Of a stretch of 64,000 nucleotides of DNA, positions 750-39,605 are shown piece by piece. The translations under genes and the position numbers were made by a program. The DNA lies in assembly GCA_026168455.1 (NCBI GenBank), contig CM047431.1, positions 19,381,547 to 19,445,546 of the forward strand, in the 5' to 3' direction. Each line of letters begins with the position of its first letter. Position 1 is the first letter of the stretch. The notes beneath the pieces were generated by a model, which saw only the letters and a list, made by a program, of their open reading frames with translations, had not been told where the DNA came from and searched no databases. Source of the stretch: Theocolax elegans. Its lineage: Eukaryota; Arthropoda; Insecta; Hymenoptera; Cerocephalidae.

Positions 750-954
750 ACCCCGCGCGGGGTGTCCTGTTCCCGTATGCGGCGCGTCCCCCGGGTGGCG
801 GATGGGGGAAAGCTCGTCACGCTTGCGTGAAGGGTAGAGGTGAAACAAAATAGCCTCCGTGGACCAAACAGTTGAAGATGGATGATGAGCAAGCGAATGG
901 AATACCTACTACCCCAAGCGGGCAGCTCCAAACTAGGAGTAAATCCCCCCGTCG
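750..954 (+). mobile_element. 5' part of an R1/TRAS-like LINE (5' UTR and start of ORF1)
   Basis: This GC-rich block starts with CCCCGCGCGGGG and contains a possible ORF1 start (ATG at 878). It stops at the left end of the Transib-like element. Deleting that element and one copy of its duplication joins base 954 to 14489, and the frame from 878 then stays open to a stop near 14684. The remainder of ORF1 lies in other frames, so the LINE was already decayed or decayed later. Assignment to the R1/TRAS/Waldo group rests on the zinc knuckles in the right-hand part. Confidence 0.6.
950..954. repeat. Left 5-bp target-site duplication CGTCG
   Basis: CGTCG directly precedes CACAGTGGGCC and is repeated at 14484-14488 directly after GGCCCACTGTG. 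Five-bp GC-rich duplications are a known trait of Transib insertions. Confidence 0.85.
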
Positions 955-1492
955 CACAGTGGGCCAAAAAAAAAATCGTGTTTCAAAAATACCGATGCCA
1001 CTGAGTTTTCATCGTATATACACGAAATTTTAACTATAGGTAGCTTTTGATATAGGGAATAGGTATCCGCGTCCCTAGAACCGATATCAGATGATGTAAT
1101 CGATATAAAAAATGATATATGGGCGATATATCGCAAAACCGCTGCAATAAGATTAATTAATGAAGTAAACGAGCAGTTAATACTTTCTTTTCATAAATTT
1201 AGTAGAAGTAAAAGTATACATGTGTGCGTATATTATATATATATAGTATGTATTATATATTCACATACACAACTTATAATCTATATGTATATACATATGT
1301 ACATGGATGTACATATATGTGTATAAATTGATCAATCGGTACTTATGCCGACAAATTCTTACGGGAAATGGGAATTGTGCTTACTTTGGGGTAATTATGC
1401 CGACGTCAGCATAATTCCACCGAAAATTCAACCATGTATCCGTACTTATGCCGACACACAAAAAATCGGAAAATTATCTTTGTGAGCCCCGC

Positions 1493-1618
1493 TTTGACGT
1501 TATAATATTAATGAAGGATTGAAGCTATAACGTCTTTTGAGGTGCCGGAGGCCGGAGGCCTCCGACACTTCGAATGAAGTTATAACTTCAATCCTTCATT
1601 AATATTATAAGGTCAAAG
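1493..1618. repeat. Short hairpin element (about 126 bp)
   Basis: TTTGACGTTATAATATTAAT at the left pairs with ATTAATATTATAAGGTCAAA at the right, and GGAGGCC units lie at the loop. The block is nearly palindromic along its length and looks like a small foldback MITE inside the left-arm insert. Confidence 0.75.
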
Positions 1619-1814
1619 TGTGCTTTTTTACCGGTGAGGGGTATTTAGGTATTTGGGTTATTGGATATTTGGGTTATTGGTTTTTTATGCATTATTCTGT
1701 CAATTAATATTCTCCCCCTTATATCTGAGTCGTTACATATGTTTTATAACCTCAAAACACCAAGATAACACGAAGTGTCACCATAAGTACCGATACTGGT
1801 GTTTATATATATAT

Positions 1815-2811
1815 GGGGTGTTCCACGTGAAGTGGTCCGATCAAAATTTTAAAATGCACCAAATTTTGGGTACACTTTGCAAATGTTTTTCAGAATACAG
1901 AAAAAAATTTTTAGGTACTGGAATCTATTTGCTCAAAAGTTATTCTAACCTCAAAAAGTGAATTTTTCCATATTTTTTTCAACACCAGCTGGGTTTACCG
2001 CTATATAACTCAAAATCTATCAACTTTTACTATAGAACATTATACGTAACATTCGTTGCTAATTATATCTAGAATTTATTCTTCTGGGTTAGAATTTCTA
2101 ATCTCAAGGTCAATGTTACATAAACTACATGTCAATATTCAACTTAAAAAAAGTGCAAGTGCGCCACCTTTGATTTTTTCATCCAAAAGTCTAAAAGAAA
2201 GCTTGGAGCAATACCTTTCAAATGGTCTGTAGCATTTTTATGGCCTCCAATTCTATAAAAAGTTATGACAATTTAAAGAAAGACAAAAAATTCACAAAAA
2301 TTAACATGGTAATTCCCATTTAAATTTTTACAAAAAATTTCGTGTGTCTTTAAATTGTCATAACTTTTTACAGAATTGGAGGCCATAAAAATGCTACAGA
2401 CCATTTGAAAGGTATTGCTCCAAGCTTTCTTTTAGACTTTTGGATGAAAAAATCAAAGGTGGCGCACTTGCACTTTTTTCAAGTTGAATATTGACATGTA
2501 GTTTATGTAACATTGACCTTGAGATTAGAAATTCTAACCCAGAAGAATAAATTCTAGATATAATTAGCAACTAATGTTACATATAATGTTCTATAGTAAA
2601 AGTTGATAAATTTTGAGTTATATAGCGGTAAACCCAGCTGGTGTTGAAAAAAATATGGAAAAATTCACTTTTTGAGGTTAGAATAACTTTTGAGCAAATA
2701 GATTCCAGTACCTAAAAATTTTTTTCTGTATTCTCAAAAACATTTGCAAAATGTACCCAAAATATGGTGCATTTTAAAATTTTGGTCGGACCACTTCACG
2801 TGGAATACCCC
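1815..2811. repeat. Foldback element, about 1.0 kb (GGGGTGTTCCACGTG family)
   Basis: The left arm from GGGGTGTTCCACGTGAAGTG is the inverted copy of the right arm ending CACTTCACGTGGAATACCCC, with the centre near 2313. Both sides are TATA/TG-rich, suggesting insertion into a microsatellite. The same family recurs at 25956-26857, and elements with similar ends occur at 25931-25945 and 32637-42305. No coding capacity is seen; small open frames in the arms are by-products. Confidence 0.85.
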
Positions 2812-3199
2812 ATATGTATACACACACACATACATATATATATGGGAGTTTACGCGTCAAGAATGCAAAAAATTTCTATTATTTCGAACAAAGGGAGTTT
2901 CAAAATTGACTAAGAAAACCCGAAATTGGCTGATAAGTGAAAAATGGATCTTTTTAAAAACAAAGATTTTTAAGCCAATATAATTTGAAATTGATGGGTG
3001 TTAATGAAAAAAGTGATAAAGACACAAAAAGTTGGAAATTTTATGAATAATATCAAACAAATGATCTGGGTATTACATATCAATGGTAAGAGTTACAGCC
3101 AAAATAAATCTTAAATGAAAAAAGGTGATGTGCGATTTGTACTCTTTATTTAATATTTTATTGCATTGAAAAAAATGCACAATCTATATAGTTTTCATT

Positions 3200-3419
3200 T
3201 TATAAATGACTGCTGTCATAGCTACTAATATCGCTATCGGTACTATCTGAATTGTAACTGCATTCTGGTTCTGCATCATCCTGTGCACATTCTAAAAGTA
3301 ATTGTTTCATTGAATAATCTAAATCAATTTCCTTTTTTGCAGAAATATTTCTTAACGTTGAAATAAATGGGTCGGAATTTAGAAGCAGTCTTTTGAAAGT
3401 ATCCGAGTTTGTTAAGATA
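3200..3419 (-). CDS. Transib transposase exon 7 (C-terminus)
   Basis: Acceptor GATTTCAG; reads RILTNSDTFKRLLLNSDPFI and STLRNI, then an acidic Ser/Asp-rich tail ending YDSSHL and a TAA at 3200-3202. SDP-x-ISxLR is usual near the C-terminus of Transib transposases. The acidic tail looks specific to this element. Confidence 0.82.
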
Positions 3420-3886
3420 CTGAAATCAAATAAAGGAACATTTATGAATCGATTTATATTTTAAAATTTGTAATACATAACTGCATCGTTTAGGTAGTTA
3501 AACAAATTAATTTTTCCAATTTTGATCGACGAAAACAGTAAAAATTACTCTTAACCTGTTAAACTCTTAAATCCACTGATAACAATAGTGAAAATTTCTG
3601 TTTCTCTGACAAAATGAACTAATAAATCAGTAGTTTTGCTAATTAAATTTGTTAATAACTATTTAGTATTTGAAGAAATAACTATTCAATTATTATGAGT
3701 GACAACTAAACTTAGCTAAATTAGGTCTGAATTAAAATTAATGACTGTCACTTGCACTATGTAAGATAAAGTTAATACTCAGTTTTGTCATGGAATCAAA
3801 CTACTTTCTTACAAATTGACAAGAACCAGGCATATCAAATATTAACGCTACCGTAATTTAACACACGTGCTAATAAAATACATTAC

Positions 3887-4177
3887 CGTGAAGACTTCCT
3901 TGAAAATTTTTCTCTGTATGCTTTAATATTTTTGTAATTGCTTTCCTGAGCTTCTTCAGAAAGCATGCCTATCGGTAAAATTAACTCCTCCATAATTTGG
4001 TGACCGTGAATTAAAATTACATGCATGGAAGGTGGCATGTTGTACCAGGAGTATAACTCACATATCTTTCTGCAGTTTTGTAAGCAAATACTTTGAATTT
4101 GTCTTTGTCGATTGCACGTTCTGAGGCAATGACAGCTAGAATTGTTTTGAACATTTTCAGCAGTTCTGCGTCAAAAC
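3887..4177 (-). CDS. Transib transposase exon 6 (His pair and catalytic Glu region)
   Basis: Acceptor TTTTTGAG, donor CACG|GTAATG. It begins in frame with FDAELLKMFKTILAV; the frame shifts after KTAERYV near 4060 and resumes with LYSWYNMPPSMHVILIHGHQ and GMLSEEAQESN. The two His and SEEAQE match the zinc His pair and final catalytic Glu region of the family. One lost base, perhaps a G before AGTTATAC, explains the break and makes the exon length fit phases 1 and 2. Confidence 0.82.
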
Positions 4178-4640
4178 CTCAAAAATACGGAGTGTTTTGT
4201 AAATTCATCATATTCATACCATTATGACTCATTTATATTTAATAATATAGGATATTGTATATTTTTCTTGACAAATTAAAAAATTATTTATTATTAAAAT
4301 TATACAAAGAAAAGATAGTATTTTCGCGGAATGAATTACAGTGTGCTGTAGTTTAAAGTTTTGTATAGTAGTTTTTCTATTTAAAAATTACAAACACTTT
4401 TTACTATGTTTTAATTATTTTATCTTAATATCTGAAAATCCTGATAATCAATATTATTAAAAAAAACAATTATTAAATAATGTATAATAAATGAAATTAG
4501 ATGAAATATTTAATTTTCAAAGATTCTTAATCTCAAGTTACTTATTTTTCGTTTACTATAAGTGAATTTAAGTGACAATCAAAAGTAATTTACTAAGTAT
4601 TAAATTATAATTCTAAAATTATACATTTAAAATATATTAC

Positions 4641-4815
4641 CCGTTACTCTAGAAACAGTTTCAATATTATTAAAAAAAGTCCTTGCGGTATTTCCATCGT
4701 TTGTATTGCCGGAACCTTGTGTCGGGGCATCTACTAGTATGCCTAGTTCCTGTCGAAGCTGATTTTGAATGCAAAGCTTGCGTTCTTTAACTATATTTTT
4801 TGTAGCTTCAGAAAC
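4641..4815 (-). CDS. Transib transposase exon 5 (GNTNDGNTAR)
   Basis: Acceptor TTTAG at 4816-4820, donor ACGG|GTAATA, phase 0 to 1. It encodes VSEATKNIVKERK and LVDAPTQGSGNTNDGNTAR, then TFF and SRVTG. The NDGNTAR block is one of the best conserved stretches shared by Transib and RAG1-like proteins. Confidence 0.88.
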
Positions 4816-5068
4816 CTAAATAAATATTCATATTTTAAATTAAATAAATATTATACTAAATAGAAGAGCTGGTTTCATTTTTTCAAATTAAGAATTAATA
4901 CTAAAAAAATTAAATCATAATATTCTTTAATAAATCTCAACGACAGAAGTAAATTTTGTAAATTCATTTAGATTAAGTATGATTGGTATTTTATGAATCT
5001 ATTTAACACCATAAACATCGATTTATTTTAAAATATAATTAAAAGTGATATTTAAAAAATTGCATTTA

Positions 5069-5245
5069 CCCTGGTAAAAAAATAACCAGATTATGGGCAG
5101 AAATTTCTGGTCAACACATGTTGAATTGGCGTATACCTAGAAATTCATGAAATTTTCTCAAATAGATTTCTAACAATATCTTATTTTGAAAAAAAATTTG
5201 ATCAGAAATTCTGGTTAGAAGTATGCTTAATTTTTTACCAGGGTA
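5069..5245. repeat. Small foldback in transposase intron 5
   Basis: ACCCTGGTAAAAAAATAACC at the left pairs with the right end TTAATTTTTTACCAGGGTAG. The spacer also has paired halves around CAGAAATTTCTGG. This looks like a short MITE. Confidence 0.65.
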
Positions 5246-5304
5246 GATAGAGATACTCTTTAAAATTTGTATTTAGATTTAAATTTTATGTGCTGATATA
5301 CTTT

Positions 5305-5800
5305 CTTCCCCTAATCATCTATAAAGTCCACTTTATTGACCTTTGTGAAGGGACTAAAATGGAATATTTTTCCTTTATTACTTTATTCCCCGTTAACCCA
5401 TTTTAATCCCCGTAGACCGACTTTATTCATCGTGGACCCACTTTATCTACTGTAGACTTACTTTTTTTCTTTAAATACTTATTTTAGCCTATTCCTCCAA
5501 ATTCAACATTAAATTTATTTCATTAAATGAAATAAAACCAACATATCATGAACAAATTTAGAAATTTGAAAAAATTTAGACATTTGAAAAAATTTAGACA
5601 TTTGAAAAAATTAAAAAATTTTTAACTAAATTGATGTCGAATAAAGTGGTCTTTTAAATGATAAGGGTGAAAAATTTTCTATACTCTTCGGGAGTAAAAG
5701 GCAATTATTCCTTGGATGAATTATTGCCGTCGCTAAAACTCGGTCAGTAACTTTCATCGCGAGAATAAACGTCTATTTTTGCCCTTGGTGCACGAATAAC
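5305..5800. repeat. MITE-like repeat, copy 1, inside the transposase gene
   Basis: Contains CCTAATCATCTATAAAGTCC at the left and GATAAGGGTGAAAAATTTTC at about 5660, plus several ACTTTATTCCCCGT-like units. It matches, in inverted order, the copy at 8130-8615. It lies in the intron between exons 4 and 5. Confidence 0.65.
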
Positions 5801-5984
5801 TATTTTCTTTTATTTTTTATATTATGCATAAAAGTCAGCGTTTGGAGGAAAGAAAATAAAACAAATATTAAAAAATGTTGAAATAATCATTTTATTTTAA
5901 GGCGAAAGTTGTAAATATTGTTATTCCACTTGTAATTAAGGGGAAAATACTCTTAAAACTGTTAAAATGCATTTTGACTTCAAA

Positions 5985-6535
5985 AATTGTTATAAAAAAA
6001 TATATTATTTTTAACAAAGTATATATATATATATAAAATAAAAACTCAAAGATTTTGTCCTAAATCAATCCAAATTTTATGCTACCATCCTCCAAATACT
6101 GGAAAAATGCATTATGAGCTTTGACATACACTTTTCACCGATTAACCAATCTTGATCTAATCACTCTCTTTTTGTAGCTGAAACGTATCGTTTCGACCTG
6201 AAGCTATTTAGATTGTGATATTTCTAAATCTTTAATTGTTAAGTTAAAAAAATGTCAAAAATTAAAATAAATTACAATTCTTCAAAAATTTTGGCAAAAT
6301 ATTCACATTTTGTTAACCCAATAATTTAGGATTTAGAAATATCACGATCTAAATAGCTTCAGTCTGAAATGACATATTTCAGCTACAAAAACGGAGTGAT
6401 TGGATCAAAATTGGTACATCGGTCAAAATGTACCTTACGCCAAAGTTAAGAATGTATTTGATCTGCAAAACTCACTGCAAAAATCTTTCAATTTTTATAG
6501 TTGTATGTAAATACCTTTAAACTTAAAATAACTTT
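5985..6535. repeat. Foldback MITE, family with CTACCATCCTCC, copy 1
   Basis: The left half (AATCCAAATTTTATGCTACC near 6070) and right half pair around a centre near 6270, with TAGCTGAAA/TTTCAGCTA in the arms. A better preserved copy is at 12726-13335. It lies in the intron between exons 4 and 5. Confidence 0.65.
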
Positions 6536-6621
6536 ATTTTAAGTTATAAAATAAATTTAATTTAGATTAAGAAAAAATAAAGTTTTTTAAACTTGAATAT
6601 ATCAAAATACATTAAACTTAC

Positions 6622-6828
6622 TCTCCACTGTTTGAAATTTAAACGATACGAAATATGAAGAACTAATTCCATAAATCTTATGTACGCATGTAATACGAAA
6701 AATCCATATTTTAAAGCTTCTTGCGTAACAGTACGAGTTATCATGTCTTCGATAATGTTTAATTGAGAAATTAATGCTTGACACAGGAAACATCTTTGGC
6801 TTGAGGAATCATTTAAAGCATTGCAAAC
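6622..6828 (-). CDS. Transib transposase exon 4 (CxxC and LHISYRL)
   Basis: Acceptor ATTACAG, donor TGGAGA|GTAAGT; 69 codons, phase 0-0, intact. It encodes VCNALNDSSSQRCFLCQA, then KYGFFVLHAYIRFMELVLHI and SYRLNFKQWR. The CxxC corresponds to the zinc-binding Cys pair after the second Asp, and LHISYRL is a hallmark of Transib proteins. Confidence 0.88.
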
Positions 6829-7357
6829 CTGTAATATTAAGTTGGCTGAATAAAAGTACATTGACATTTTAGTTTTAGATTAAATAAAATATGGTATTAA
6901 ATAGTAGTAGTCGAAGTCTACCAAATGATATATTTACAATTATTTCTTTGCTTACATTAAGAATACTCATTAATTTTTGATTATTAAAATTTAAGTGTTA
7001 AAATTTTGATTATTTAAAGTACAGTAGGAATTATTTTACAGTCGGAACGTTAGCTTTTATATCGCTTAGGTTGCAATTTCATGGCAAGATTGCAATATTA
7101 TTTTATTTCGTAAAATTACTCAATTTTATGTAAATATGATACTTTAATTCACGGAGACAAATATGTATACCACTTCTATTATAATATAAAATCAGATTAA
7201 AATAAAAGATTGAAAACACATGCATATTTGAGTCCTTCTTTGTTAAAGCATCAATGTAAAGCGTTTTTACAAAAATTTTACTTAACGAAAAGAAAAGTGA
7301 TCACTAAAATATTACACATGTTTGTAAAAGATTATTATTTGTAAATTAATCATTTAC

Positions 7358-7836
7358 CTTCCCATCAATCATGGTCAATAACAACTGAAAACTAACTGTA
7401 AAGGTATCCATTTGAATATCCTCCAGCTCTTCTATTTGCTTCTTTAAATACTCTTTCCCGTCTTTGCATAATGCTGATGTTTCCTTTTCGTAAATAATTT
7501 TAATTGGTCGACAAAACCAAGTTGATGATGGACGAGGATTTTTCCAATAAACATTTTTGTGCTTGTCTATTAATTGTAGCGGGACAAGAGAGGAGCAAAA
7601 TAAGCTGCTACTAAAAGCTTGTGTATCAGCTGCTATTTGTTTATACACGTTTATATTGGTACCATCAAACCCATATTTTACAATAAGGAAAAGTTTCTTA
7701 TTTTCTTCAAAATTCAATGTCAAAAGTTTACAAATTCGTGTTACCGTATGATTTAATAAACTTTGCAATGGAACTTCGCACCTTACTTCCGTTACGATCA
7801 AACCTGCAGGATAAGCTTCTTTTTTGCTTCAGAAAC
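7358..7836 (-). CDS. Transib transposase exon 3 (both catalytic Asp)
   Basis: Acceptor ATGTAG before GTTTCTGAAGC; donor GGGAAG|GTAAAT. The first codons read VSEAKK, then a run of six A breaks the frame; one extra base would restore it, and 479 + 1 = 480 nt fits phase 0 at both ends. The rest holds VTEVRCEVPLQSLLNHTV, KYGFDGTNINVYKQ, SSLVPLQL, NPRPSSTWFCRPI and LLTMIDGK. The Asp of FDG and of TMIDGK correspond to the first two catalytic acids of the Transib/RAG1 core. Confidence 0.85.
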
Positions 7837-8129
7837 CTACATAAGTTTAGTTCCAATTGACAAATTATAACTGAATGCTTTTAGCTCTTTCTCAAAAGAA
7901 GATTAAATTTTGTTTCAAAAAAATCTTTTTTAATAATGATTTACTTCCAACAAATATAAATCAATTTGTGTAAACAAATCGAAACTTTAAATTTATTAAT
8001 AAAAAGTTATAGCTACAAGTAATAATTTATAGATACAAATTGGGATTCGATAAATCGATTTACCAAAATTTCTTTCTTACATTAATCAATTTTTTTTTAA
8101 ATAACATATATTGTTCGTATGTAACAGTA

Positions 8130-8615
8130 ATAATTATTTATGCACCTCAGGAGTAAAGTAGGCGTTTATTCCCGGGATGACAGTTACTGCCCGAGCTTTA
8201 CCGAGGTTTTACAAGTAATTCATCCAAGGGAATAATCGCCTTTTACTCCCCAAGTGCATATAACATATTTCACCCTAATCATTTGGAAATCCACTTTATT
8301 CGACAACAATTTCTTTAAAACTTTCTAAACTTTTTCAATATTGTAAAATTTTTTGCTGTATTTAATTGAACAAAATTAATTTAATTTAGTATTTGTAGAA
8401 AAACACTAAAACAAGTGTTAAAAGACAAAAAAGTAACTCTACGGTGAATAAAGTTGTTTTATCAGCAATAAACTGGGTCTACGGGGAATAAAATGAGTCT
8501 ACGGGGAATAAAGTAAGTCTACGGGGAATAAAGTGACTCTACGTAAGTAATTTTACTCCCTCCGTAGAGGTCAATAAAGTGGACTTTTCAGATGGTTAGG
8601 GTGAAAAATAATATT
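8130..8615. repeat. MITE-like repeat, copy 2, in transposase intron 2
   Basis: Same family as 5305-5800. Contains repeated units of CTACGGGGAATAAAGT and is bounded by CACCCTAATCATTTGG on one side and GATGGTTAGGGTGAAAAAT on the other, which are inverted relative to each other. Confidence 0.65.
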
Positions 8616-8786
8616 ATTGAACTAAAGATGCTATTATCACAATTTTTGTTTGTTTCAAAATTAAATCTTTATGTTTTAAAAATTAGAAAAATTTGGAAAA
8701 AATTAATAATATATGCTTAAAGGTCATAGCTCTTTACTTCTTAAATTATCTGATGAATACAGTCTAGTATAAATCATTAAAATTAC

Positions 8787-9139
8787 CTTTCTATACGATG
8801 GATAGTAGTTAAGATTATCTTTTTTAGCTTGAGCGCGTATGCATTTGTAAGCCGCCTTAGACAACTTAGCATCCAGAAGTAATACCATAGCTTCTGTCGT
8901 TGACATTTGAACGCCTTTTGTATTATTTAAGCTGTTCAATGTAGAACGGCAACTATCATTGTCTGAAATGTTGCTTAGCAATTTAACGCCGGCATAATTT
9001 TCATCTCTCCTTAAATTCAATTTCGTGATGTTCAAGCATTCTTCGGTTGTCAATAAATCACTAAAAGAGGAGTTTATTCGCCATTGAGTGAATCGAGAAG
9101 CTAGTTCATAATTTGCACTAGGTCTTCCTCGTTTACGTT
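8787..9139 (-). CDS. Transib transposase exon 2
   Basis: Acceptor TTGTCAG at 9140-9146; donor AAAG|GTAATT after YPSYRK, phase 0. Carries ERKRGRPSANYELAS, the basic GRP motif typical of the family, and STTEAMVLLLDAKLSKAAYK. Exon 1 (one leftover base) and exon 2 (two bases) join in frame. Confidence 0.82.
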
Positions 9140-11259
9140 CTGACAACAGTTGTAAAAAAACAAATTTATTAGTTTTAGAAATTACATTCACTGTTTCGAA
9201 GGTTAGCTCGATCAGTAGATAGACATATCCATATATGTGGGGATGCGCAATAAAACGGTAAAAGTCGACAATTGTCATTTCGAGGAAAAGCGAAAAAACT
9301 TGCCAAATGTAGTTAGAAACTATGAATCTTCACAATATTTGACATAATTAGCTGGGATTCAATAATAAATGATTATAATGAAGCAAAATTAATAAATATT
9401 CAAAGATATTTAAAATATTTATAAAAATAATTTTAGACTTATACCGTTTTGAAAATTATTGACCCTTTTTTACACTTTAAGAGTTTTATCAAACCAATTT
9501 ATTGTTCACAATATTTAAAATTATAGTACATATAAGTTTATTCATTTTTTAGTAAAATTTTAGTATATTCATACAAGAGTAAAATCATTTTTTTTTAAAC
9601 GGCTTTTGACTTTTTGATACAGTACGTGGAATGTGCGATATTTTACACTGCTCGGTTTTAAAAAATCGCATTTCTGCTTACCATATAAAAAAAATATCGT
9701 TCTTGTGACTGACTCGTGCGAACACTTTTTTAAAAAGGCCTTTCTTTTCGTCCTAAGCATTGAAATACAGTTTTTTTTTAGTTTTTTATTAATTTTTATA
9801 AAACGTGAGGTATTTTGGTCTAAACAAAATAAACAAAAAGGCCTTTTTTAAAAAAGTATTCCACTTCAATTATTGTATTTATAAAAACAAAAAAAAAACG
9901 TGAGTGATTACATTCGATTTGTTTAACAAAGCTTGAGTAATCTCGTAACGCGCAAAGTTCTGTGCAAAAATATAAGGAGTCAATTAAAGGCATTTTTTGG
10001 AGCCTGGAATGAATATACGAAGATTTAGAACCCCCTCAAATCGAATCTCTAAGTAAGTACTTTATGGTAGAATTTTTTTTATGTGCTCAACTCTAAGTAT
10101 AAGAAAATTTTTAAGAGCTTGTTAAAGATGTTATGATTTTTCTCAGACTTATCCCCTTTAGTAATCACGATTTTTCGTTATATTCGATTTAACGGGTTTG
10201 GCAACGTTTTGTATTTATTAATAAATAAATATTATGCACACACTGTGAAAATATAAAAAAAAACTAAACAAGACTATTTCCTAACCGAGATGCATAAATA
10301 TGTTTTAATCATATAGGACAAAGGCTACCATAAAAGCGATGCAAAAACGCCAAAAAATCCGATTTAGTGTGAAAAGCAATAGCAATATCGTATGGTATTT
10401 TTTGATACGACGTGTGGGAAGCTTCAGTGTCGAAAAAACAGTTTGCATAGACTTACAGTTTGTACTTAATCGGTTTTTTCTAATATATGTTGTACATAAC
10501 AAGAAAAATCGGGCCCGGAAGGTGTCTCCGAAAAATTGTTTCGAAAGATTTTGAACGTTTGTAAGGTTGTTTTTCTATGGTGCGTGTTTGTGTGTGTTTG
10601 TGTGCGTGCGTGCGTGCGCGCGTGTGTGTGTGTAAATTATTTTAGTCGAATTCGACAAAAAGTTGTTCAAATATTTTATATTTTGCTTAAATTTCTACTT
10701 ATCCAAAATAAGCAAGTTTTAGATGCCGATAACTTTAGTTTCAATTAATCGATTCAATCGTATTTGAGAGTGAATAAAAGCTCTTAGAAAGATTGAAAAA
10801 TACCGTGTGAATTCTAAAAAAACAATAAATTTGCAAATTTATGATCTATTGGCAACAAATTCACAAAGTTCCGATCAATTAAATGTGACATTAAAATTTA
10901 GCAAAATTTGTTGTACTAAAATTAAAAATGCATCCTAAAAATGATTGCAATTATCCTGTGACTATTTTATTCTGTTAGCAGAACAATAAATGAAGAGAAC
11001 CTTTCACTGTACATGTATATATATGTATATAAATGGCATTCTAGAATCGAACGCCGATAAAGCAATACATTTTTTAAATCAACTTATACAGTTTTCATAA
11101 AAATTATTCTAATTTAAATGTGTTAAAGTCGCTTTTTTTATACAACGTTAATGTCACATTATAGAGCATTCTTAGCAGATTCATTTTATGTGATAAAGTT
11201 ATAAACGATTTAAATCGACTTAGACCGTTTTACCGCGCATCTCGTCACATACTACTTAC
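9140..11259. other. Intron 1 of the Transib transposase (2.1 kb)
   Basis: No conserved coding block was recognised on either strand. It holds poly-A/T runs, a GTGCGTGCGTGCGCGCGTGTG tract near 10600 (shown in part) and small open frames without recognisable motifs. Confidence 0.5.
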
Positions 11260-11569
11260 CTGGTTCAATATATTCAGGAGCTTCATCCAAATCAAAAGGA
11301 ATTTCAATTTCAACATCTAACCAATCTTTATATTTATTTTCAAACACTGAATGCTTATTATTTCGGGGCAGTCGATCGAAATATTTTTTTAATTGTGGAT
11401 AAAAAGATGTCCTCAACTTGTAGGTAATAATGGATTTTACGTGATCACCCTGCAAATTATGCATTTCCATAAGTTGATCAACCACTGCGTTTCTTTTCTC
11501 ACTTTCCACTTTAATATTGCTTATTTTGTAAATATCGTAAATATGTTTTCGCTTAATAATTAAACTCAT
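11260..11569 (-). CDS. Transib transposase exon 1
   Basis: Begins at MSLIIKRKHIYDIYK and ends ...EYIEP at a CCAG|GTAAGT donor, phase 1. It contains FENKYKDWLD, resembling the N-terminal KxxxWL stretch of Transib proteins. No catalytic residues lie here. The frame is open upstream to 11656, but the residues before the chosen Met look unselected. Confidence 0.7.
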
Positions 11570-11819
11570 TTTTATGTATAAAGAAAAATTCTTTAAAAGA
11601 TCAAGCTTGCACGAGTTTACTCGAGAGACTAAAAGAAAAAACTTAAAAATATACATCTATTGAAAGTTTGTTTACCATTAGTTCACGATGCATAGAAAGA
11701 ATCACCTTAGCATTTTCTCGACACAACAATATAAGTCAAAACCATAAACATTTGTTTATGTACTGAGTTTCGAGTCGATGTTTAATGCAAAAAACCGATT
11801 TTAAAAAATTTTAATTTGG

Positions 11820-12110
11820 CTCTAACTTTAAGTCATTTAATATGACTTAAATTTACATATATGCATCTTGAGACAGCTTTGAAAACGCGTCGATTGAACC
11901 CAAACAGGGTCCAATCGGATTGATAGAACCAAAGATATTAAATGTTTACACACACACACACACACACACGCATCCATACAGACATTTTTCAAAAATTACA
12001 TATTTCGAGTCCCAGAGTGTCAAAACATCGATAAATGATGATTAAAAAAAAATTTTTTTTCACGATAACAATGGCTTCCTCTACGAGGAAGCAAAATAAA
12101 AAAACTTACG
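11820..12110. repeat. Microsatellite-linked dispersed repeat, (CA)n centre
   Basis: A CA tract (about 11949-11970) is followed by GCATCCATACAGACA, and a similar CA plus CATCCATACAGACA junction occurs at 13685-13710. This suggests one repeat family carrying its own microsatellite. It ends near CTACGAGGAAGCAAAATAAA. The class is unknown. Confidence 0.45.
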
Positions 12111-12413
12111 TTTATTTGCAACATAAAAATTAAGATTTATAGTAATTTTCAATTAAAAAGAAACGTTACAAAAGGAAAGAATGTGAAGTTTTTTTACTTT
12201 TCCTTACGTTTCACCTTTGACTCAGAAAGATCGACAAATTTTCAACCACTTAATATTGAAAAAATCACCGAGTGATAAAATCAAATCAACTACATAATTT
12301 TCAATTCGAAACTACCAGTTTTTTAAATGAAAAGATATTTTTAATCGACTACGACAAATCTAAAAAAAGTTACTCAAATCACGGAATTTATTTCAAGTTT
12401 ACCATAGATTAAC

Positions 12414-12725
12414 TTAAACGGAGAATCCGTACTCCATGTAAGGTGGTCCACACACAGTAATTTGTATTACCAAAGCATACACACAAATCAACAATTCAAA
12501 CCTGATTATAGGCTTTAAAGTATTATTAGTATTTACTCTAGTTATTCGAAACTTTCTTAAATCTAAATTTCGGTAGTTTTCACTTGATATGTCAAATAAA
12601 TGTATCCAAACAAGTCTGTTTGGACTCATTTGAAAGTAATAATATACATAGTTAAGAGCTGACAAGATAAGGATATTGAGAAAAATACATACACTTAAAA
12701 TTGGTAAAATGAATGTTGTTTTCAA
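12414..12725 (-). CDS. Doubtful 103-residue hydrophobic open frame
   Basis: The frame starts MKTTFILPILSVCIFLNILI, a plausible membrane or signal stretch, but the rest matches nothing I recognise. It lies upstream of exon 1 of the transposase, inside the Transib-like element, and abuts a MITE at 12726. Base use is like the surrounding AT-rich non-coding DNA, so chance is the simplest explanation. It does not resemble RAG2 kelch or PHD sequence. Confidence 0.15.
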   Translation of the reverse strand: MKTTFILPILSVCIFLNILILSALNYVYYYFQMSPNRLVWIHLFDISSENYRNLDLRKFRITRVNTNNTLKPIIRFELLICVYALVIQITVCGPPYMEYGFSV

Positions 12726-13335
12726 AAATTGTTATAAATAAATATTTTTTTGTTATTGAAGTTATATTTACATACAAGTATAAAAATTAAAAGATTTTGA
12801 CCGAAATAAATCCAAATTTCATACTACCATCCTCCGTATACTGGAAAAATGCATATTGAACTTTGTTGTAAGGTGCACTTTTGACTGATCAACCAATTTT
12901 GATTTAATCCCTCGCTCTTTTTGTAGCTAAAATATGCCATTTACGACTAAAGCTATTTAGATTGTGATATTTCTAAATCCTAAATTAAATTAACAATTAA
13001 AAAAAAATCGAATTATTTAAAAATTTAGGAAATTTTTGACATTTTCTTAAACATTTTAAAATTTAGAAGTATCAGAATCTAAATAGCGTACGGTCGAAAT
13101 GACATGTTCAGCTACAAAAAGAGAGTGATTAGATTAAAATTCGTTGATCTTTCAAAAGTGTAACTTACGGCAAAGCTCAAAATGCATTTTTCCAGTAGAC
13201 GGAGAATGGTAGTATGAAATTTCGATTTATTTAATTAAAATTTAGGTCAAAATCTTTTAATTTTTATATTTGTATGTAAATACAATTTCAATAACAAAAA
13301 AAATATTTATTTATAATAATTTTTTAAGACAAAAT
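12726..13335. repeat. Foldback MITE, family with CTACCATCCTCC, copy 2
   Basis: The left arm (TTGTTATAAATAAATATTTT, then CATACTACCATCCTCCGTAT) pairs with the right arm (ACGGAGAATGGTAGTATG, then AATATTTATTTATAATAATT). The centre is near 13030. About 600 bp, no coding capacity. Confidence 0.75.
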
Positions 13336-13794
13336 TCATTTTACTAATTTTAAGTGTACCTTAATGTAAGGTAGAGGGATTTTTTATTTAAGTTTTTAAG
13401 CTATTCTTATAGAGGATTATTTATAAAGATTACAATTGTTGGTATTGTTATATGATTTACAAGCTTTTTATATTTTTAGATAAAATTTTTGTAGATATTC
13501 ATGCAATATACTGCATACTGATATCATGGTTATATAAAATTATGTAAAACTATATAGAGGGTTGATTACTAAATTAATTTTGGTTATTATCATTTTTTTA
13601 CAATAAACACATTAAATGACTCTTTTATGGAGTTTTCTTATGACTTTAAGTATCAAAGAAATAAAATGATTCAAAGTATTATTATACACACACACACATC
13701 CATACAGACACATACACAAACAGTGTTATTGTTGTAGCACTTTCCAGAAGTGAGATAAAATACCCGATTTTTTTTACAGGTTTTTCGCCATATT

Positions 13795-14483
13795 TTCAAC
13801 ATTTTAGCTCTTACCATTGATATATGATACCCAGATCATTTGTTTGATATTATTCATAACATTTCCAACTTTTTATGTCTTTATCAATTTTTTTCATTAA
13901 CATGCATCAATTTCAAATTATATTGGCTTAAAAATTAGTTAATTTCGAAAACTCCCTTTGTTCGAAATAATAGAAATCTTTTGCATTCTTGACGCGTAAA
14001 CTCCCATATATATATGTGTGTGTGTGTGTATACATATATATACACATATATGTACATACATGTACATATGTATATACATATAAACTATAAGTGGTGTATG
14101 TGAATATATAATACATACTATATAATATATATATATATATAATACATACTATATAATATATATATAATACATACTATATAATATATATATACATATATAT
14201 ATAATATACGCACATATGTATACATTTACTTCTACTAAATTTATGAAAAGAAAGTATTAACTGCTCGTTTACTTCATTAATTAATCCTATTACAGCGTAT
14301 ATTGCGATATATCGCGCATATATCATTTTTTATATCGATTACATCATCTGATATCGGTTTTAGGGACGCGGATACCTATTCCCTATATCAAAAGCTACCT
14401 ATAGTTAAAATTTGGTGTATATACGATGAAAACTCAGTGGCATCGGTATTTTTGAAACACGATTTTTTTTTTGGCCCACTGTG
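13795..14483 (-). repeat. Right long terminal inverted repeat of the Transib-like element
   Basis: Uninterrupted arm of about 0.69 kb, inverse to 955-3110 minus its insert. It ends CACGATTTTTTTTTTGGCCC and ACTGTG. The middle is AT/GT microsatellite (14040-14220), whose length differs between the arms. Confidence 0.85.
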
Positions 14484-14488
14484 CGTCG
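14484..14488. repeat. Right 5-bp target-site duplication CGTCG
   Basis: Same five bases as 950-954, directly outside the right terminus. Confidence 0.85.
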
Positions 14489-16124: not shown

Positions 16125-17230
16125 TATTATAGTAATCCTTCAGATTAGTATCATAATTTTCATAGCGGTGTAAAATTAAAAATCCAGCATTATAAATGTT
16201 TAAAAATTAATTTTTTATAATTGTATAATAATATATGGGTGGTTCTCTGTGACATCGAAGATGAAAAAGTAAATATTGCTATAACTGTGGGAATATGTTT
16301 TAGAGGTATCCAATAGTTCTCCTGAATTTTTTCAGATTTTTTCTGGTCCACTATTTTAAGTTACAGAGAGTCAAAGTTGACATTTTAGCACTTTTTTGCA
16401 TTATATGCCCATTTTCATGAATTTTTAGCTCCCAGGGGATGCATTTTTCACTAAAAACATAAGTATGACTTTTTTTGTAAAATTTTCCGAACTTTTTATT
16501 AAAAATACTTTTAAAGACATAAATTTAAACCTTAAATAGTGAAAATCAGCAATTCTGCTCCGGACTCTGGTAACCTAATACTGTCTAAAAGATGTCTTTT
16601 TATAGTCAGAAACTGCCTAAAAATTTCCAGAGTGGGTCTAAATCATTGAGATCACTTATTGCCAAAATATCCGGGAAAAGTGCCCGAAATATTAATAGAA
16701 ATGTATATTTGTTGCCTTGTAACGATGAATCTATTAGCATGATCATTGTAAAAAAATTTATGCACTTACCTTGGAGTGGTAGAAAAGTATCTTCACTTGT
16801 TTCAGTATCCATCTAATCCCCTGTAAGCTGCTAAAAATACAAATATTATTATACAAATGAAAAAAATTAATTTTTAAACATTTATAATGCTGAATTTTTA
16901 GTTTTACATCTCTTACAAGAATTATAATACTAATCTGAAGGATTACTATAAATGTTTAAACAACATTATTACAATAACTGAATATACGTATTTAATACAA
17001 AAGATATATAAATAAATCGGATATATAATTATAATGAATAATATGTTAACGTGACAGTGACAAGTTTGTGAAATCTAAACAATATATTGCTGAATAATAA
17101 TAATAACAATGTTGATACTTTTATAATAATCCTTCAGCTTAGTATTATAATTCTTGTAAGGGATGTAAAACTAAAAATACAGCATTATAAATGTTTAAAA
17201 AATAATTTTTTATAATTTTATAATAATTTT
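16125..17230. repeat. Three copies of a roughly 105-bp repeat
   Basis: 16125-16230 and 17120-17230 are direct copies (AGTATYATAATTYT then CAGCATTATAAATGTTTAAA) and 16858-16955 is the inverse copy. They lie at the edge and in the centre of the foldback at 16237-17887. Confidence 0.6.
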
Positions 17231-17887
17231 TTTTTTAACAAGTTTTTTTTTAATTTGTATTTTTAACAGCTTACAGGGGATTAGATGGATACTAAAACAA
17301 GTGGAGATACTTTTCTACCATTCCAAGGTAAGTGCATAAATTTTTTTGCAATGATCATGCTACTAGATTCATCGTTACAGGGCAACAAATATACATTTCT
17401 ATTAATATTTCGGGCAGTTTTCCCGGATATTTTGACCATAAGTGATCTTAATGATTTAGACCCACTCTGGAAATTTTTAGGCAGTTTCTGACTATAAAAA
17501 GGCATCTTTTAGACAGTATTAGGTTACCAGAGTCCGGAGCAGAATTGCTGATTTTCACTATTTAAGGTTTAAATGGCTTACAAGAGTGTGTTAGCATACA
17601 TTTATGTCTTTAAAAGTATTTTTAATAAAAAGTTCGGAAAATTTTACAAAAAAAGTCATACTTATGTTTTTAGTGAAAAATGCATCCCCTGGGAGCTAAA
17701 AATTCATGAAAATGGGCATATAATGCAAAAAAGTGCTAAAATGTCAACTTTGACTCTCTGTAACTTAAAATAGTGGACTAGAAAAAATCTGAAAAAATTC
17801 AGGAGAACTATTGGATACCTCTAAAACATATTCCCACAGTTATAGCAATATTTACCTTTTCATCTTCGATGTCACAGAGAACCACCC
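16237..17887. repeat. Foldback element, 1.65 kb (GGGTGGTTCTCTGTGAC family) with exon-like frame
   Basis: Arms of about 0.6 kb are inverted copies, from GGGTGGTTCTCTGTGACATC on the left to its inverse ending GAACCACCC on the right, both next to TATA. Each arm contains a short frame MDTxTSxDTFLPxQGKCIN with a donor-like AAG|GTAAGTGC after LPFQ, and TTACAG a few bases upstream. Related pieces are at 18636-19035 and 24860-25290. This looks like the duplicated end of a larger DNA transposon that kept its first coding exon. Confidence 0.75.
17285..17327 (+). other. Exon-like segment in the foldback arm
   Basis: ATGGATACTAAAACAAGTGG starts a frame MDTKTSGDTFLPFQ that meets AAG|GTAAGTGC. The inverse copy begins at 16812 (MDTETSEDTFLPLQ) and a decayed third copy lies at 18970 (ATTGATACTAACAAGTGAAG). 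Conservation of frame and donor in copies differing at several bases suggests a true exon of the parent transposon. No function can be given. Confidence 0.4.
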
Positions 17888-17894
17888 ATATATA

Positions 17895-25290: not shown

Positions 25291-25955
25291 ACTCGAAGAG
25301 ATGACACCCAGAAATATTGATTATCAAAAAAGGCGAACACACCACAATTGATTTTGATCTAACACCCCTCAAACATTTTTCAAGAGTTTTTAATGGTGGT
25401 AGTTAGATTATTGGCCAAGACCACTGGTAAAAATTATGCCTTAAAATACATGAAAATTAGTGATTTTATGAGGTTTATGAGGCATAACTTTCACTAGCGG
25501 TCTTGGCCAATAATATAACTACCGTCATTCGAAAGCTCTTGAAAAATGTGATCTGTTGAGCGGTATTTGATCAAAATCAATTCTGGCGTGGTCGTCTTTC
25601 TTTGATAATCGATATTTTTTATATTTCCGGGTGTCCTATCTCTTCGAAATTTCAAATAAAGTATTGCAACCTGGGTAGATAAATTCTAGAGATTACTTTG
25701 AACAAAAGTTGTATGTAATGTTTTTTCTTTCAAAATAATCAATAGATTTTGAGATAAATGGCTCTAAAAATAGCAATTTTTTTAAAAAATTTAAAAAGTT
25801 CCATTTTTATGGTGAAATAACTCACAGTCAAATTATTTTTAGAGCCTAAAAATTTTTTTCGATTTTCTGGATGATATTTCGAGCCTGTTCTCAAAATTTG
25901 GTGCAATTAAAAACTTTCATCATACCACTTCACGTGAAATAGCCCATATATATAT
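25285..25955. repeat. Nested foldback with one TTCCACGTG-type end
   Basis: CGAAGAGATGACACCCAGAA on the left pairs with the right part GGGTGTCCTATCTCTTCG at about 25650, and GGCCAAGACC/GGTCTTGGCC pair inside. The sequence then runs to CACTTCACGTGAAATAGCCC at 25928-25947, an end related to the 1815-2811 family and directly next to another member. Confidence 0.6.
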
Positions 25956-26857
25956 GGGGTATTCCACGTGAACTGGTTCGATCAAAATTTTAATATGCAC
26001 CAAATTTTGAGTACACATTGCAAATATTTCTCAGAATACAGAAACAAATTTTTAGATACTAGAATTTATTTTCTCATAAGTTATTCTAACCTCAAAAAGT
26101 GAATTTTTCCAAGTTTTTTTCAACACCAGTTGGGTTTACCACTATTTAACTCAAAATCTATCAACTTTTACTATAGAACATTATATGTAACATTCGTTGC
26201 TAATTGTGTCTGAAATTTATTCTTCTAGGTTAAAAGTCTAAAAGAAAGCTTGGAGCAATACCTTTCAAATGGTCTGTAGCATTTTTATGGCCTTCAATTC
26301 TGTAAAAAGTTATGATAATTTAAAGAAAGATAAAAAATTCACAAAAATTAATATGGTAATTCCTATTTAAATTTTTTTTAAAATTTCGTGTTTTTTTAAA
26401 TTATCATAACCTTTTACAGAATTGGAGGCCATAAAAATGCTACAGACCATTTGAAATGTATTGGTCCAAGCTTTCTTTTAGACTTTTGGATAAAAAAATC
26501 AATTGTGGCACACTTGCACTTTTTTCAAGTTGAATATTGACATGTAGTTTATATAACTTTCACCTTGAAATTAGAAATTCTAACCTAGAAGAATAAATTC
26601 CAGACACAATTAGCAACAAATGTTACATATAATGTTCTATAGTAAAAGTTGATAGATTTTGAGTTAAATAGTGGTAAACCCAGCTGGTGTTGAAAAAATC
26701 TTGGAAAAATCCACTTTTTGAAGTTAGAATATCTTTTGAGCAAATAGATTCCAGTACCTAAAAATTTGTTTCTGTATTCTGAAAAACATTTGCAATGTCT
26801 ACCCAAAATTTGGAGCATTTTAAAATTTTGATCGGACCACTTCGCGTGGAATATCCC
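25956..26857. repeat. Foldback element, about 0.9 kb (second member of the GGGGTRTTCCACGTG family)
   Basis: Arms are the inverse of one another and align with 1815-2811 almost throughout (for example CAAGCTTTCTTTTAGACTTT). Both ends lie in TATA repeats. The left arm is shorter than in the 1815 copy. Confidence 0.8.
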
Positions 26858-27489
26858 ATATATATATATACATATATACAGGGTGTGTCAAAAGTTCTAA
26901 CACGGCATAATAACTCGGCAAACACGTCATCTCGAAGAAAATGTTTTAGTCAAAATTTGTATGATTTTTTCTTAGCTATTTGATGGTGACCTAGAATTTG
27001 ACCTTGAATTTGACCTTCAAGGGCATTTGAAGGTCGGGTTGAGTTTTTAAAATTAGAACCCCCATTTTGTATAGCAGAAATGAAAAGCTGATGAAATTTA
27101 CTATCCAACGATATGCATAACATAGGGGGTCTTTATTGTAATTCTTCTAAGCTTCATAGGCGTTGAAAAAATTTTTCGTGCAGTAGATTGTTACCTGGTT
27201 GATCACTGCTGACCTTGAATTTAACCCATGAAGGATATTTTAAGCTGAAGAGTAGCCTTAGTAGAAAATTATCTGTAGGTGATTTGATGCAGACAAAAAT
27301 TTGTCTGAGTAAGGACTCCTTACTGCCCAGGCACTCAAGGCAAGACCAGGATTATCATTTAGAGTTTTTTAGTCCTCGACACTCTTATATAAATAAAATC
27401 TTACCGTGTGAATGCAACAAAGAAAAATTCCCTTTATCTGGCAACCCTGGGCAAGACCCCTCACTGCCCAGCCAGTGAAGGCAAGGCTT

Positions 27490-33132: not shown

Positions 33133-33937
33133 TGACTTCAACCCAGAAAGGGTTGGTCAAAGGAAAGGGGTACGCTCGCCAAGTAGGTTTAAGGAGAGGT
33201 TAACAAAATTAACAAAACTTTTAATTATTAAAATATATGCGGCTCAGGGCGGTGTATACATACAATGAGAATGCGGTGTATAAGGACACGCGTTCGCGTA
33301 CGCGCACAATGTCGAGGAGGACGAGGTGGAGGCACTCTACGATGTCGCTGCTAAGCGCGAGGCGCTAGGGAAGCGGTCCGTTCGTAAAGACTTGAGCGTT
33401 AGCGTTAAACGCAATTCGCTTTCCTCGGTCTGTCTCCAGTAATAAGTCTGGCGTGAAACAAAGAAACACCCAACAAATTCGCCAAAAGCGCAAGACGCTG
33501 GACAGCGAAGTTTGTCGGTTTAGCACTAGCGCGGACGCGCAATATGCTTGTGTTTTGCCTCGAGAAGGTACGAGAGCTCGTACGAAGTATTACGATAACG
33601 CGGCGCGAAACTCGGACGAGTCAGGTACGCGACCGCTTGAAAAGCGAGGAGTTGTTCGTCGTTCGAGGCGTCGGACGAGAGTCCCCGTTTCGCGGGGCCG
33701 ATCGGCGCGCGCGAGAGGCGGCGCAGCGGCGGCCGCTCGATGCAGCGAATCAGCATCGAGGAGTTCGGGTCACATGTTCTGAAAGGGGAAAGGTCTTTCT
33801 TCGCAAAGACCGACGGGTAAATTCGGCGATTTTGACGACCGTTAGAAAGAGGAGAATTGTTTATTTACTTCTTGGTAATATTTTCTTTACCAAGCGCTTC
33901 TTATTTTTTTCGTGAGTGTGCGAGCGCGCACACGTCA
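33133..33937 (-). repeat. 3' LTR of the gypsy element
   Basis: On the minus strand it begins TGACGTGTGCGCGCTCGC and ends GGTTGAAGTCA. Open frames inside it occur identically in the other LTR and are not genes. Confidence 0.93.
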
Positions 33938-33950
33938 ATTCCCCCCCCAT
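33938..33950 (-). other. Polypurine tract
   Basis: The minus strand reads GGATGGGGGGGGAAT directly before the 3' LTR, the usual site for plus-strand priming. Confidence 0.8.
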
Positions 33951-34256
33951 CCGGACGACTCTTTCTATCGGTCGGCGAAAAGTGTATGTGTATGTGTAAG
34001 TGTGAGCCCGTTTGCCTATGTTTATTCATAAAATAACATCTAGTTTTTTTTTTTTTAATACATAAAGCATGAAATGAATGAATTTATATAATCCAAAATT
34101 ATAAGTAACGCATTGTACAAAATTATTGAAACATTATTAGTTTGAATATAAAGAAATGGTTTTGTTTTAGAGTCTTATTAATCATTACTCGCAGTAGAAA
34201 AATAATATAAATTTCACGATAATTGTATAAGAAATAAAAAATTACACTGAAAATCA

Positions 34257-34649
34257 CTATGCACTAGCACTATAAAGTTTATTGTTCAAGTTCTCTTTAC
34301 AGTTGATTTCGATGCAATCGGCATTCTGCTCTGCTTGAAGACGTCCATCCTTATGGCGATCAGCTGATCGCGCTCCAGTCGCAGGTTTTGTTGTTGAGTC
34401 GATTTCAACGTGAATACCGAGCGCTTTTCCTAATTCTATGTAGGCGTCTACTTTTTCGACGTGATTGTTCGCCTTGTGCGCGTGTAAGCAATCGTCCAGG
34501 ATATTGCGCAATCGCTTCCGGAATCCTCCGCGTTGACGACGAGCCTTTAGTTCGCGGCTACCGATAGTCAATTTGAGCGCGTCGGATCGACCGGTATTTA
34601 GCGATTCGTTTATTGACTCCGAGTCCGATTTCGCAGCGGGTAGCGACAT
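34257..34649 (-). CDS. Gypsy ORF3, 130 residues, unknown function
   Basis: This frame begins with MSLPAAKSDSESINESLNTG, overlaps the end of pol by about 40 nt, and lies in the -1 frame relative to pol. It encodes a basic stretch (RELKARRQRGGFRKRLRNIL) followed by an acidic or neutral helical part (VEKVDAYIELGKALGIHVEI). There is no signal peptide or membrane segment, so it is not an envelope protein. GC content is like gag and pol, and no stop interrupts it, suggesting it is or was used. Its role is unknown; the basic region might bind nucleic acid (inference). Translation could use a second -1 shift or re-initiation at its ATG. Confidence 0.6.
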   Translation of the reverse strand: MSLPAAKSDSESINESLNTGRSDALKLTIGSRELKARRQRGGFRKRLRNILDDCLHAHKANNHVEKVDAYIELGKALGIHVEIDSTTKPATGARSADRHKDGRLQAEQNADCIEINCKENLNNKLYSASA

Positions 34650-37600: not shown

Positions 37601-38260
37601 CACTATCGGCGAACAATACGGTGACGTAGAGGGTTCGATCATTCCGTCCGCGAGCATTTCGCGCACTTGCTCTTCAATCGCGAGTTTCTTCGTGGGCGAA
37701 TAGCGGTACGGGAAAAGTCGAAATGGTGTAGTATCGGTCAGTTCGATAGAATGTTCGATAAACTTCGTTTGTCGTAAAGGTCCGTTCGGGAAAAATACGT
37801 CCGCGTATTCCGCGATCACGTCCGCGAGTTTGTCCTTGTGTTCGTCGGGAAAACCGTGTTGTACACTCGCGAAAAAGTCTGCTGTAGGTTGTACACTTTG
37901 CACAGGTTTCGAACCGTCGCGGTTTAAATACACGCGGTATCGCGTCGTGTTACCGAAATATATACAGTCTAAGTCGTGGTCGTGTATGACTCTCTCGTCT
38001 TTGAGCCAACGACGTCCATGTGTTACCTCGGTCTCGAGATCGTCGCACACATAGAATTTCACTAAGTTTTCATAATTACCGATTCGCACTGGTAATTCGC
38101 ACACTCGAGTAGTTAACATGGTCGAGCCGCGTCGCGCAAGATTAATCGTCCGATTCACTGTTAGCCCTTTGGTGTCTTTGTTTATAAATCGCGATCGTAT
38201 AAAGCAGTCACTTGCACCTGAATCGATAAGCGCACTAGTTTCCACTCCGTTCACTGTCAT
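34610..38260 (-). CDS. pol: Gypsy Pol polyprotein (protease, RT, RNase H, integrase)
   Basis: 1216 residues from the first Met, all domains intact. Protease: LIDSGASD (D13). RT: TTLDL (D269) and YLDD (333-336). RNase H: LQTDAS (D482) and D549. Integrase: zinc H698, H705, C735, C738; catalytic D767 (VAIDLMG), D827 (LLSDNAP) and E862 (NPTERRN), a 35-residue D-E spacing; WSGPF of a GPY/F-like module at about 982. The tail is Pro-rich and ends with KRRRGRPTK and YPLRNRTRSQ. The frame is open upstream of the Met (RGRFCPDNPIDSSAHFTG) and overlaps the end of gag in the -1 frame, so expression by -1 frameshifting is likely. The polyprotein copies the RNA into DNA and integrates it. Confidence 0.95.
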   Translation of the reverse strand: MTVNGVETSALIDSGASDCFIRSRFINKDTKGLTVNRTINLARRGSTMLTTRVCELPVRIGNYENLVKFYVCDDLETEVTHGRRWLKDERVIHDHDLDCIYFGNTTRYRVYLNRDGSKPVQSVQPTADFFASVQHGFPDEHKDKLADVIAEYADVFFPNGPLRQTKFIEHSIELTDTTPFRLFPYRYSPTKKLAIEEQVREMLADGMIEPSTSPYCSPIVMSDKKDGTLRFCVDFRRLNSITKDTAQNLPRMHEVLRDVGTANIFTTLDLKRGYWQIPLSESSRPYTAFMTPDGALYQWRVLCFGLKNAPGCFNSFIEQYVLCGFANKFVRSYLDDFLVYSDTWEEHIKHLQLIFERLRIYSLTCALKKCFFGKKSLEYLGHIVSTEGNAAKPQHVNAILNAPIPQNKKDLRKFFGTCGWLRDYIPKFAEIALPLTALLAADKPWRWTNETQQAFEDIKKAFSAPLELYRPDRNKIMYLQTDASAAGMGAVIYQLGEQGERRVITYASAKFTKTEKRYHSNEQECLAIIWALRKFKPLLEDGQFVLRTDNKALTWLDNTKDGKGKLHRWAMYLRSFRFVIEHVAGRENELPDALSREPSDEVYSNNVDDEVEALLPPVKTVPQEENLRLASMTAYDLRSRIIDAQHQKPPDLHELEKYLQPSQRLECFDNTYYVTENEHSPRIYVPEICRPLVLRYFHDDPLSNHPGTEETLRATRETHFWPHMREDVRRAVAQCTECALSKASKPISKGEQKCREPFEPWDTVAIDLMGPYPRTARGKRYLLVATDLFSRWTEAFAVPNAEITTIAETLEREVFARWGYSRVLLSDNAPQFRGPAWQKRCQDWGAVAYTTPSYHPQGNPTERRNQELKKGMRLKLRGRKHRDWDKDLSTILFSLRRRQNARTGQTPSYALFGRNLPRPGERTSYNEDAQIRIDRARQHQSEKIGQHVDAPALLQPGEWVHITNFVQSNASEGFNASLADRWSGPFRILEVNSPDVYVLERPGQENIKLHISNLKRADPPTGATSAYDRSQPTCRPDASSSSPAFSPSVSTAAVLPGLVETIHEQPRTALPSPPHTYAPHSLPCPRAAPQLLPSPVCAPYSTTPYLAAPQPLPSYEAPQLLSYPIATTYPYSSVQLTTPSYAAESQAAPYVAVAPLLPTEPYAHNLQDRGFLPQVATPKRRRGRPTKAEAARRAAENRVAYTQPCRYPLRNRTRSQ

Positions 38261-38304
38261 CGGGAGGTACTCAGCTCGAGCGCCTGTAAAATGCGCGGAC
38301 GAGT

Positions 38305-39474: not shown

Positions 39475-39584
39475 GACTCAACTCATGGCGTGAGATCGAA
39501 ACGCGTCCGCGTGTTCAAAAATGCGATTTCGCGATGCGTCGTTTTTTTTTTTTTTTTTTTCTCGGAACGGAAATGCAATTTCGA

Positions 39585-39602: not shown

Positions 39603-39605
39603 ATT

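Follow-up and report, generated by a model that had tools for sequence, protein, structure and literature searches.

Does a 64,000-nucleotide stretch of the genome of the wasp Theocolax elegans (here called the window) carry a complete Transib transposon, and how closely do the ends of that element resemble the recombination signal sequences (RSSs) of V(D)J recombination? Transib is accepted as the nearest source of both RAG1 and the RSS, and its transposase is related to the enzyme that shuffles vertebrate antibody genes. An original prediction, made from the letters of the window, had placed a complete Transib-like element at positions 955-14483. This has been borne out by transposase homology, 5-bp duplications of the CGNCG type, CACAGTG ends across a family of copies, sister copies with identical borders, paired ends and an empty site holding a single CGTCG. 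On these grounds we hold, with a probability of about 0.97, that 955-14483 is a complete, now disabled Transib (RAG1-related) cut-and-paste DNA transposon, tipped with CACAGTG and inserted in open reading frame (ORF) 1 of a long interspersed nuclear element (LINE) with duplication of CGTCG.

Borders, empty site and family copies

The heptamer CACAGTG at both termini and the CGTCG on both sides lie where they had been predicted (Table 1), as does the run of ten A located 4 bp from the heptamer (CACAGTG, then GGCC, then ten A). The predicted 30 bp of terminal identity are real but far too short an estimate: the first 69 bp are the same at both ends, mismatches within the first 182 bp occur at 70, 124 and 168, and the terminal inverted repeat (TIR) extends over approximately 0.68 kb. 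The outer 182 bp of the arms are 98.4% identical, and the deeper parts 93-95% (Fisher p 0.020); collinear inverted-repeat blocks extend as far as 3095 in the left arm and 13805 in the right. The insert that interrupts the left arm consists of further repeats, including most of a palindrome with 490-bp arms (1799-2827); the three sister copies examined have no counterpart of it in their TIR arms. Relatives of this palindrome are also found at 25679-26880.

The unoccupied site was found in the host genome. When the flanks were joined with one CGTCG, the resulting 200 bases matched all 40 scored places (of 1246 candidates) over their full length at 98%, and the six of these that were read all had a single CGTCG without gaps. 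A reading-frame test of the empty site was indecisive alone, since joins with one or two copies of CGTCG both leave an open frame; the genome search decided the matter. The interrupted sequence is ORF1 of a non-long terminal repeat (non-LTR) retrotransposon, and the insertion lies near the ORF1 start.

Copies of the element were searched for in the 658-Mb host assembly. The end sequence CACAGTGGGCC occurs at 36 sites, 16 of which belong to the family (the two in the window included), while 20 are unrelated and were left out. These 16 were recognised by the heptamer and GGCC alone, and all of them carry AAAAATACC. A second pattern, consisting of 33 bases inside the end without the heptamer and allowing up to three mismatches, recovered at least 47 ends, against none for the reversed control. 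Among these 47, the heptamer is exactly CACAGTG in 40 and matches at 6/7 or better in 44; the remaining three were not used in counting flanks and spacings. The five outer flanking bases fit CGNCG in 30 of the 44 ends, and CGNCG has been reported as the Transib insertion site in baculovirus genomes from moths (excerpts of PMC4735498 and PMC5704228).

Thirteen pairs of neighbouring, inward-facing ends lie within 40 kb of each other. Eleven are flanked by identical 5-bp duplications (CGTCG, CGCCG, CGACG and CGGCG twice each; CAGCG, CAACG and CGCGG once each), and the other two match at four of five positions. The arm alignment (E 7e-142), these pairs with their 11 perfect duplications and the empty site together exclude a chance origin of the ends. 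Different borders, or an empty site without a single CGTCG, either of which would speak against the element as first drawn, were seen in none of the 13 pairs and 40 scored sites.

The window copy shares its ends and exons with three sister copies (12.08, 12.20 and 12.09 kb), whose TIR arms measure 655-752 bp. One of the sister genes has no stop or frame break in the aligned exons, except an in-frame loss of one residue, and current activity of the family seems possible from its sequence. The family has two end types, A (GGGCC, 21 ends) and B (GGGCTG, 26 ends), named here by their commonest letters, which have approximately 300 bp of end sequence in common at ~77-86% identity. Transposase exons are present in the window copy and the three measured sister A copies, and other large type A pairs span 13.0, 19.8 and 33.8 kb. 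Five elements of ~0.7 to 7.5 kb, four of type B and a short one of type A, showed no transposase by tblastn. The two among them of ~0.7 kb, one A and one B (L164, L165), are nearly complete palindromes with duplications CGCCG and CGCGG. The transposase-free elements look like non-autonomous derivatives mobilised in trans.

Neighbouring ends with identical flanks occur at G000 C2:61696848 and 61699403 and at C7:19909793 and 19911140, which suggests local duplications that include Transib ends. A separate genome-wide repeat starts with CACAGTGGGCCC, continues with GTCGGAGTACATGG or GGCGGAGTACATGG and is often preceded by CTGTGACGT; its first 11 bases are common to the Transib family. Viral contigs scanned for relatives yielded 36 matches to the pattern, of which none was confirmed as a relative, and none to the TIR pattern. 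Prokaryote genomes gave 60 short matches (the longest among the 20 alignments shown is 26 bases), which we take as chance since none extends far along the TIR.

The predicted transposase

The transposase gene is predicted to consist of seven exons (Table 1). The window copy has GT/AG at all twelve inner exon edges, as do three sister copies at the corresponding places. The predicted product can be aligned over its whole length to 20 Transib-type transposases (36-44% identity), and both Asp regions and the Glu region fall in columns that are invariant or nearly so. The translation of exon 3 has a match in the HzTransib structure 6pqn (E 1.9e-23). A 21-member profile, with the window protein among its members, has E values of 6.9e-189 for HzTransib, 5.1e-12 for amphioxus RAG1L and no better than 1e-7 for vertebrate RAG1. 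Single exons gave less: three of them had no Transib/RAG1 family match in Pfam, and exon 2 alone had no match among PDB sequences. A Transib-type DDE transposase is found together with 5-bp CGNCG-type duplications and CAC-starting termini that resemble the RSS heptamer, three traits of the Transib superfamily.

Exon 2 encodes a GRPS/KRGRPS module that partly aligns with the nonamer-binding domain (NBD) of RAG1, a GGRPR-type helical module before the DDBD. The model of this exon was built on full-length relatives, with its first residue placed at their first methionine, a small artefact. The solved HzTransib chains align only from approximately residue 183 of the full-length Transib model and therefore lack the N-terminal GRPS/NBD-like module.

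The closest proteins come from chalcid wasps, which points to a probable chalcid-wasp host, and were compared by protein only. In a tree of 49 rows, the window protein groups with Trichogramma kaykai P0005 (97/87; trimmed to its Transib part) and also with Eretmocerus hayati P0008 (100/100; on a long branch flagged as unsure). These belong to separate species and are distantly alike to the window protein, with 52% identity over 404 columns for P0005. As for the flanking LINE ORF1, the motif N-x3-[GD]-S-[DY]-RVKAP, which lies near the junction, is present in 4 of its 23 relatives inspected (P0005, P0122, P0124, P0128) and absent in the other 19. In the database protein P0005, what reads as an integrase-like stretch is joined to a Transib and to a LINE ORF1 that carries RVKAP as the host LINE does. 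The pairing of a Transib with this LINE type may thus be a recurrent one; a preference of Transib for this LINE was considered from P0005 and the window element, and two cases prove nothing.

Table 1. Positions of the transposon's parts within the window
Feature	Position	Strand	Remark
Left target-site duplication CGTCG	950..954		single copy in empty sites read
Left TIR	955..3095	+	~658 bp of TIR, interrupted by insert
RSS-consensus heptamer CACAGTG, left end	955..961	+	exact in 40/47 genome ends
Nonamer-like box AAAAATACC, left end	985..993	+	23 bp from heptamer, 7/9 to ACAAAAACC
Insert in left TIR arm	1329..2811		1.48 kb; includes most of palindrome 1799-2827
Transposase exon 7 with stop	3200..3419	-	predicted
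Transposase exon 6	3887..4177	-	predicted; catalytic E region SEEAQE, internal frame break
Transposase exon 5	4641..4815	-	predicted
Transposase exon 4	6622..6828	-	predicted
Transposase exon 3	7358..7836	-	predicted; GFDG and TMIDG catalytic aspartates, frame break near start
Transposase exon 2	8787..9139	-	predicted; KRGRPS module resembling RAG1 NBD, start of dimerisation region
Transposase exon 1	11260..11569	-	predicted; N terminus
Right TIR	13805..14483	-	679 bp
Nonamer-like box AAAAATACC, right end	14445..14453	-	23-bp spacing
RSS-consensus heptamer CACAGTG, right end	14477..14483	-
Right target-site duplication CGTCG	14484..14488

Other repeats are also present in the window. A probable LTR retrotransposon at 33396-40388 has near-identical ORFs in direct orientation (33396-33915 and 39869-40388), between which lie minus-strand frames that are gag-like (38305-39477) and pol-like (34610-38392). 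The right flank of the element holds a large inverted duplication (16231-17893, ~87% identical), with more copies near 18.6-19.0 kb and 24.9-25.3 kb. An Rfam scan of the window gave no match.

RSS likeness and alternative readings

The original prediction had seen no standard 12- or 23-bp spacing in these ends. This needs correction: in the window copy, each end has AAAAATACC at a distance of exactly 23 bp from its heptamer, and the box matches the nonamer consensus ACAAAAACC (from an excerpt of PMC8289069) at seven of nine positions. Among the 44 ends with a heptamer match of at least 6/7, inspected for the box only at the 20-23 position, the spacing is 21 in 5, 22 in 22 and 23 in 17. The 23-bp layout is therefore not a fixed signal, and exact 23-bp spacing was dropped as a family trait. 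The fixed 12 or 23 spacing of V(D)J recombination is thus replaced by 21-23 in the family, and its 12/23 asymmetry between partner ends is missing from the window copy, where both ends have 23 and neither has a nonamer match of 6/9 or better at 12 bp.

On balance, it is somewhat more likely than not that the 23-bp heptamer-nonamer layout arose by chance from A-rich termini and does not work as an RSS-like signal. Besides the varying spacing, AAAAAAATC matches the nonamer equally well (7/9) at a spacing of 7. Conservation across the 47 ends is high over approximately the first 80 bp, in which the A-rich box does not stand out, and the idea that it would do so was dropped; over the first 33 bases this conservation is biased, since the search pattern contains AAAAATACC. 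Hztransib ends have little or no nonamer similarity according to an excerpt of PMC8289069. Other counts speak for more than chance. When a heptamer of 6/7 and a nonamer of 7/9 at 12 or 23 bp are required, only the two element ends qualify in the 64-kb window, compared with a mean of 0.21 and a maximum of 3 in 100 first-order Markov sequences. In shuffled TIRs the value is 0.005 for a spacing of exactly 23 bp and rises to 0.028 if spacings of 12 or 23 bp may vary by 1. The presence of an NBD-like module in the protein also argues against chance.

In this insect Transib lineage, the heptamer and the AAAAATACC box at 21-23 bp could instead form a working bipartite signal read by the NBD-like module of the transposase, a reading that we regard as unlikely. 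Symmetric Transibs with 20-22-bp spacers, and some with 12/23, are already given in a figure legend of the review PMC8355894, so the heptamer-box layout is an instance of the RSS-like Transib ends described there.

Could the element carry a RAG1L-RAG2L gene pair and be of the RAG-like (RAGL/ProtoRAG) type, not a Transib? CAC-starting ends, GC-rich 5-bp duplications and a RAG1-type core are common to RAGL elements. However, the protein identities with Transib-type transposases and a profile that fits HzTransib far better than RAG1L make this very improbable. A second gene is not evident either: ORFs of at least 120 aa within the element are transposase exons only, and no RAG2-like frame was seen by eye among segments of at least 55 aa, in ORF lists that were read without a profile search and in which a gene of small exons is possible. 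Less probable still is a composite in which unrelated inverted repeats flank a fossil Transib transposase, a view favoured by the nested inserts that inflate the element and refuted by three further 12.1-12.2 kb copies with common ends, exon structure and TIRs and by the 13 paired ends in the genome.

Several points weigh against a complete Transib. The seven-exon structure is a prediction from sequence, and the window copy's gene has frame breaks in exons 3 and 6. Two of the three sister copies also have stops or frame breaks in their genes. The Pfam RAG1 family is reached by 12 of the 21 aligned members, the window protein not among them. The element is also several times longer than the Drosophila Transibs listed in an excerpt of PMC10299278.

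Movement and place within the superfamily

Precise ends, a 5-bp duplication, an unoccupied site, family copies and a homologous DDE transposase with its catalytic residues are all directly observed. Movement of the element would proceed as follows. The family DDE transposase would bind the CACAGTG-tipped inverted repeats and cut exactly 5' of the heptamer. By analogy with HzTransib and RAG, a nick at the 5' edge of the heptamer would leave a hairpin on the flank and a blunt transposon end. The element would then be joined to a CGTCG target cut with a 5-bp stagger, close to where the LINE ORF1 begins, an insertion that would give rise to the CGTCG duplication. Both the nick-hairpin chemistry and insertion with a 5-bp stagger are known from HzTransib and RAG (parts of PMC6941560 and PMC8355894). 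As the gene of the window copy is broken, this copy would have moved before the break, or in trans with the transposase of another copy.

Comparison with known systems shows both common and distinct traits. Hztransib from Helicoverpa zea (structures 6pqn, 6pqr, 6pqx, 6pqy) has a homologous DDE core and an RSS-like heptamer (excerpt of PMC8289069), as well as a GC-rich 5-bp duplication (GCTCG) and 'long TIRs' (excerpt of PMC1852546), for which reason long TIRs were dropped as a novelty. Hztransib differs in its length of 3518 bp and its 489-aa protein (excerpt of PMC1852546), compared with 12-13.5 kb and seven predicted exons in the window and three sister copies, and in the module and nonamer traits given above. 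The Drosophila melanogaster elements transib1-4 belong to the same superfamily by name; Drosophila Transibs measure 2.2-2.9 kb, with TIRs of 40-45 bp (excerpt of PMC10299278), far below the arms of the sister copies. Vertebrate RAG1/RSS and amphioxus ProtoRAG have a homologous catalytic core and 5-bp duplications, and the CACAGTG heptamer is common to the RSS and this family. The family differs from them in that the ORF lists show no RAG2-like gene and in that its ends do not form a 12/23 pair.

The copy at 955-14483 represents a new family within a known superfamily. No account of this family was found, judged by title or the start of the abstract among the matches listed, in a search that covered neither Repbase nor subscription papers. 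Two aspects are modestly new, namely the combination of a constant RSS heptamer and A-rich box with an NBD-like protein module lacking in solved HzTransib, and the transposase-free, near-palindromic derivatives.

In summary, this family extends a well-described superfamily and opens no new one. It offers an exact consensus heptamer, dozens of ends, clean duplications, an empty site at 40 of 40 scored places and a transposase whose N-terminal module can be aligned in part to the RAG1 NBD. If the bipartite-signal reading were true, the heptamer-spacer-nonamer logic of V(D)J recombination would be present in a plain, symmetric Transib without RAG2, and Transibs without the module, such as HzTransib, would have lost the nonamer together with it. 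With these features of the family taken together, the timing of nonamer reading becomes directly testable.

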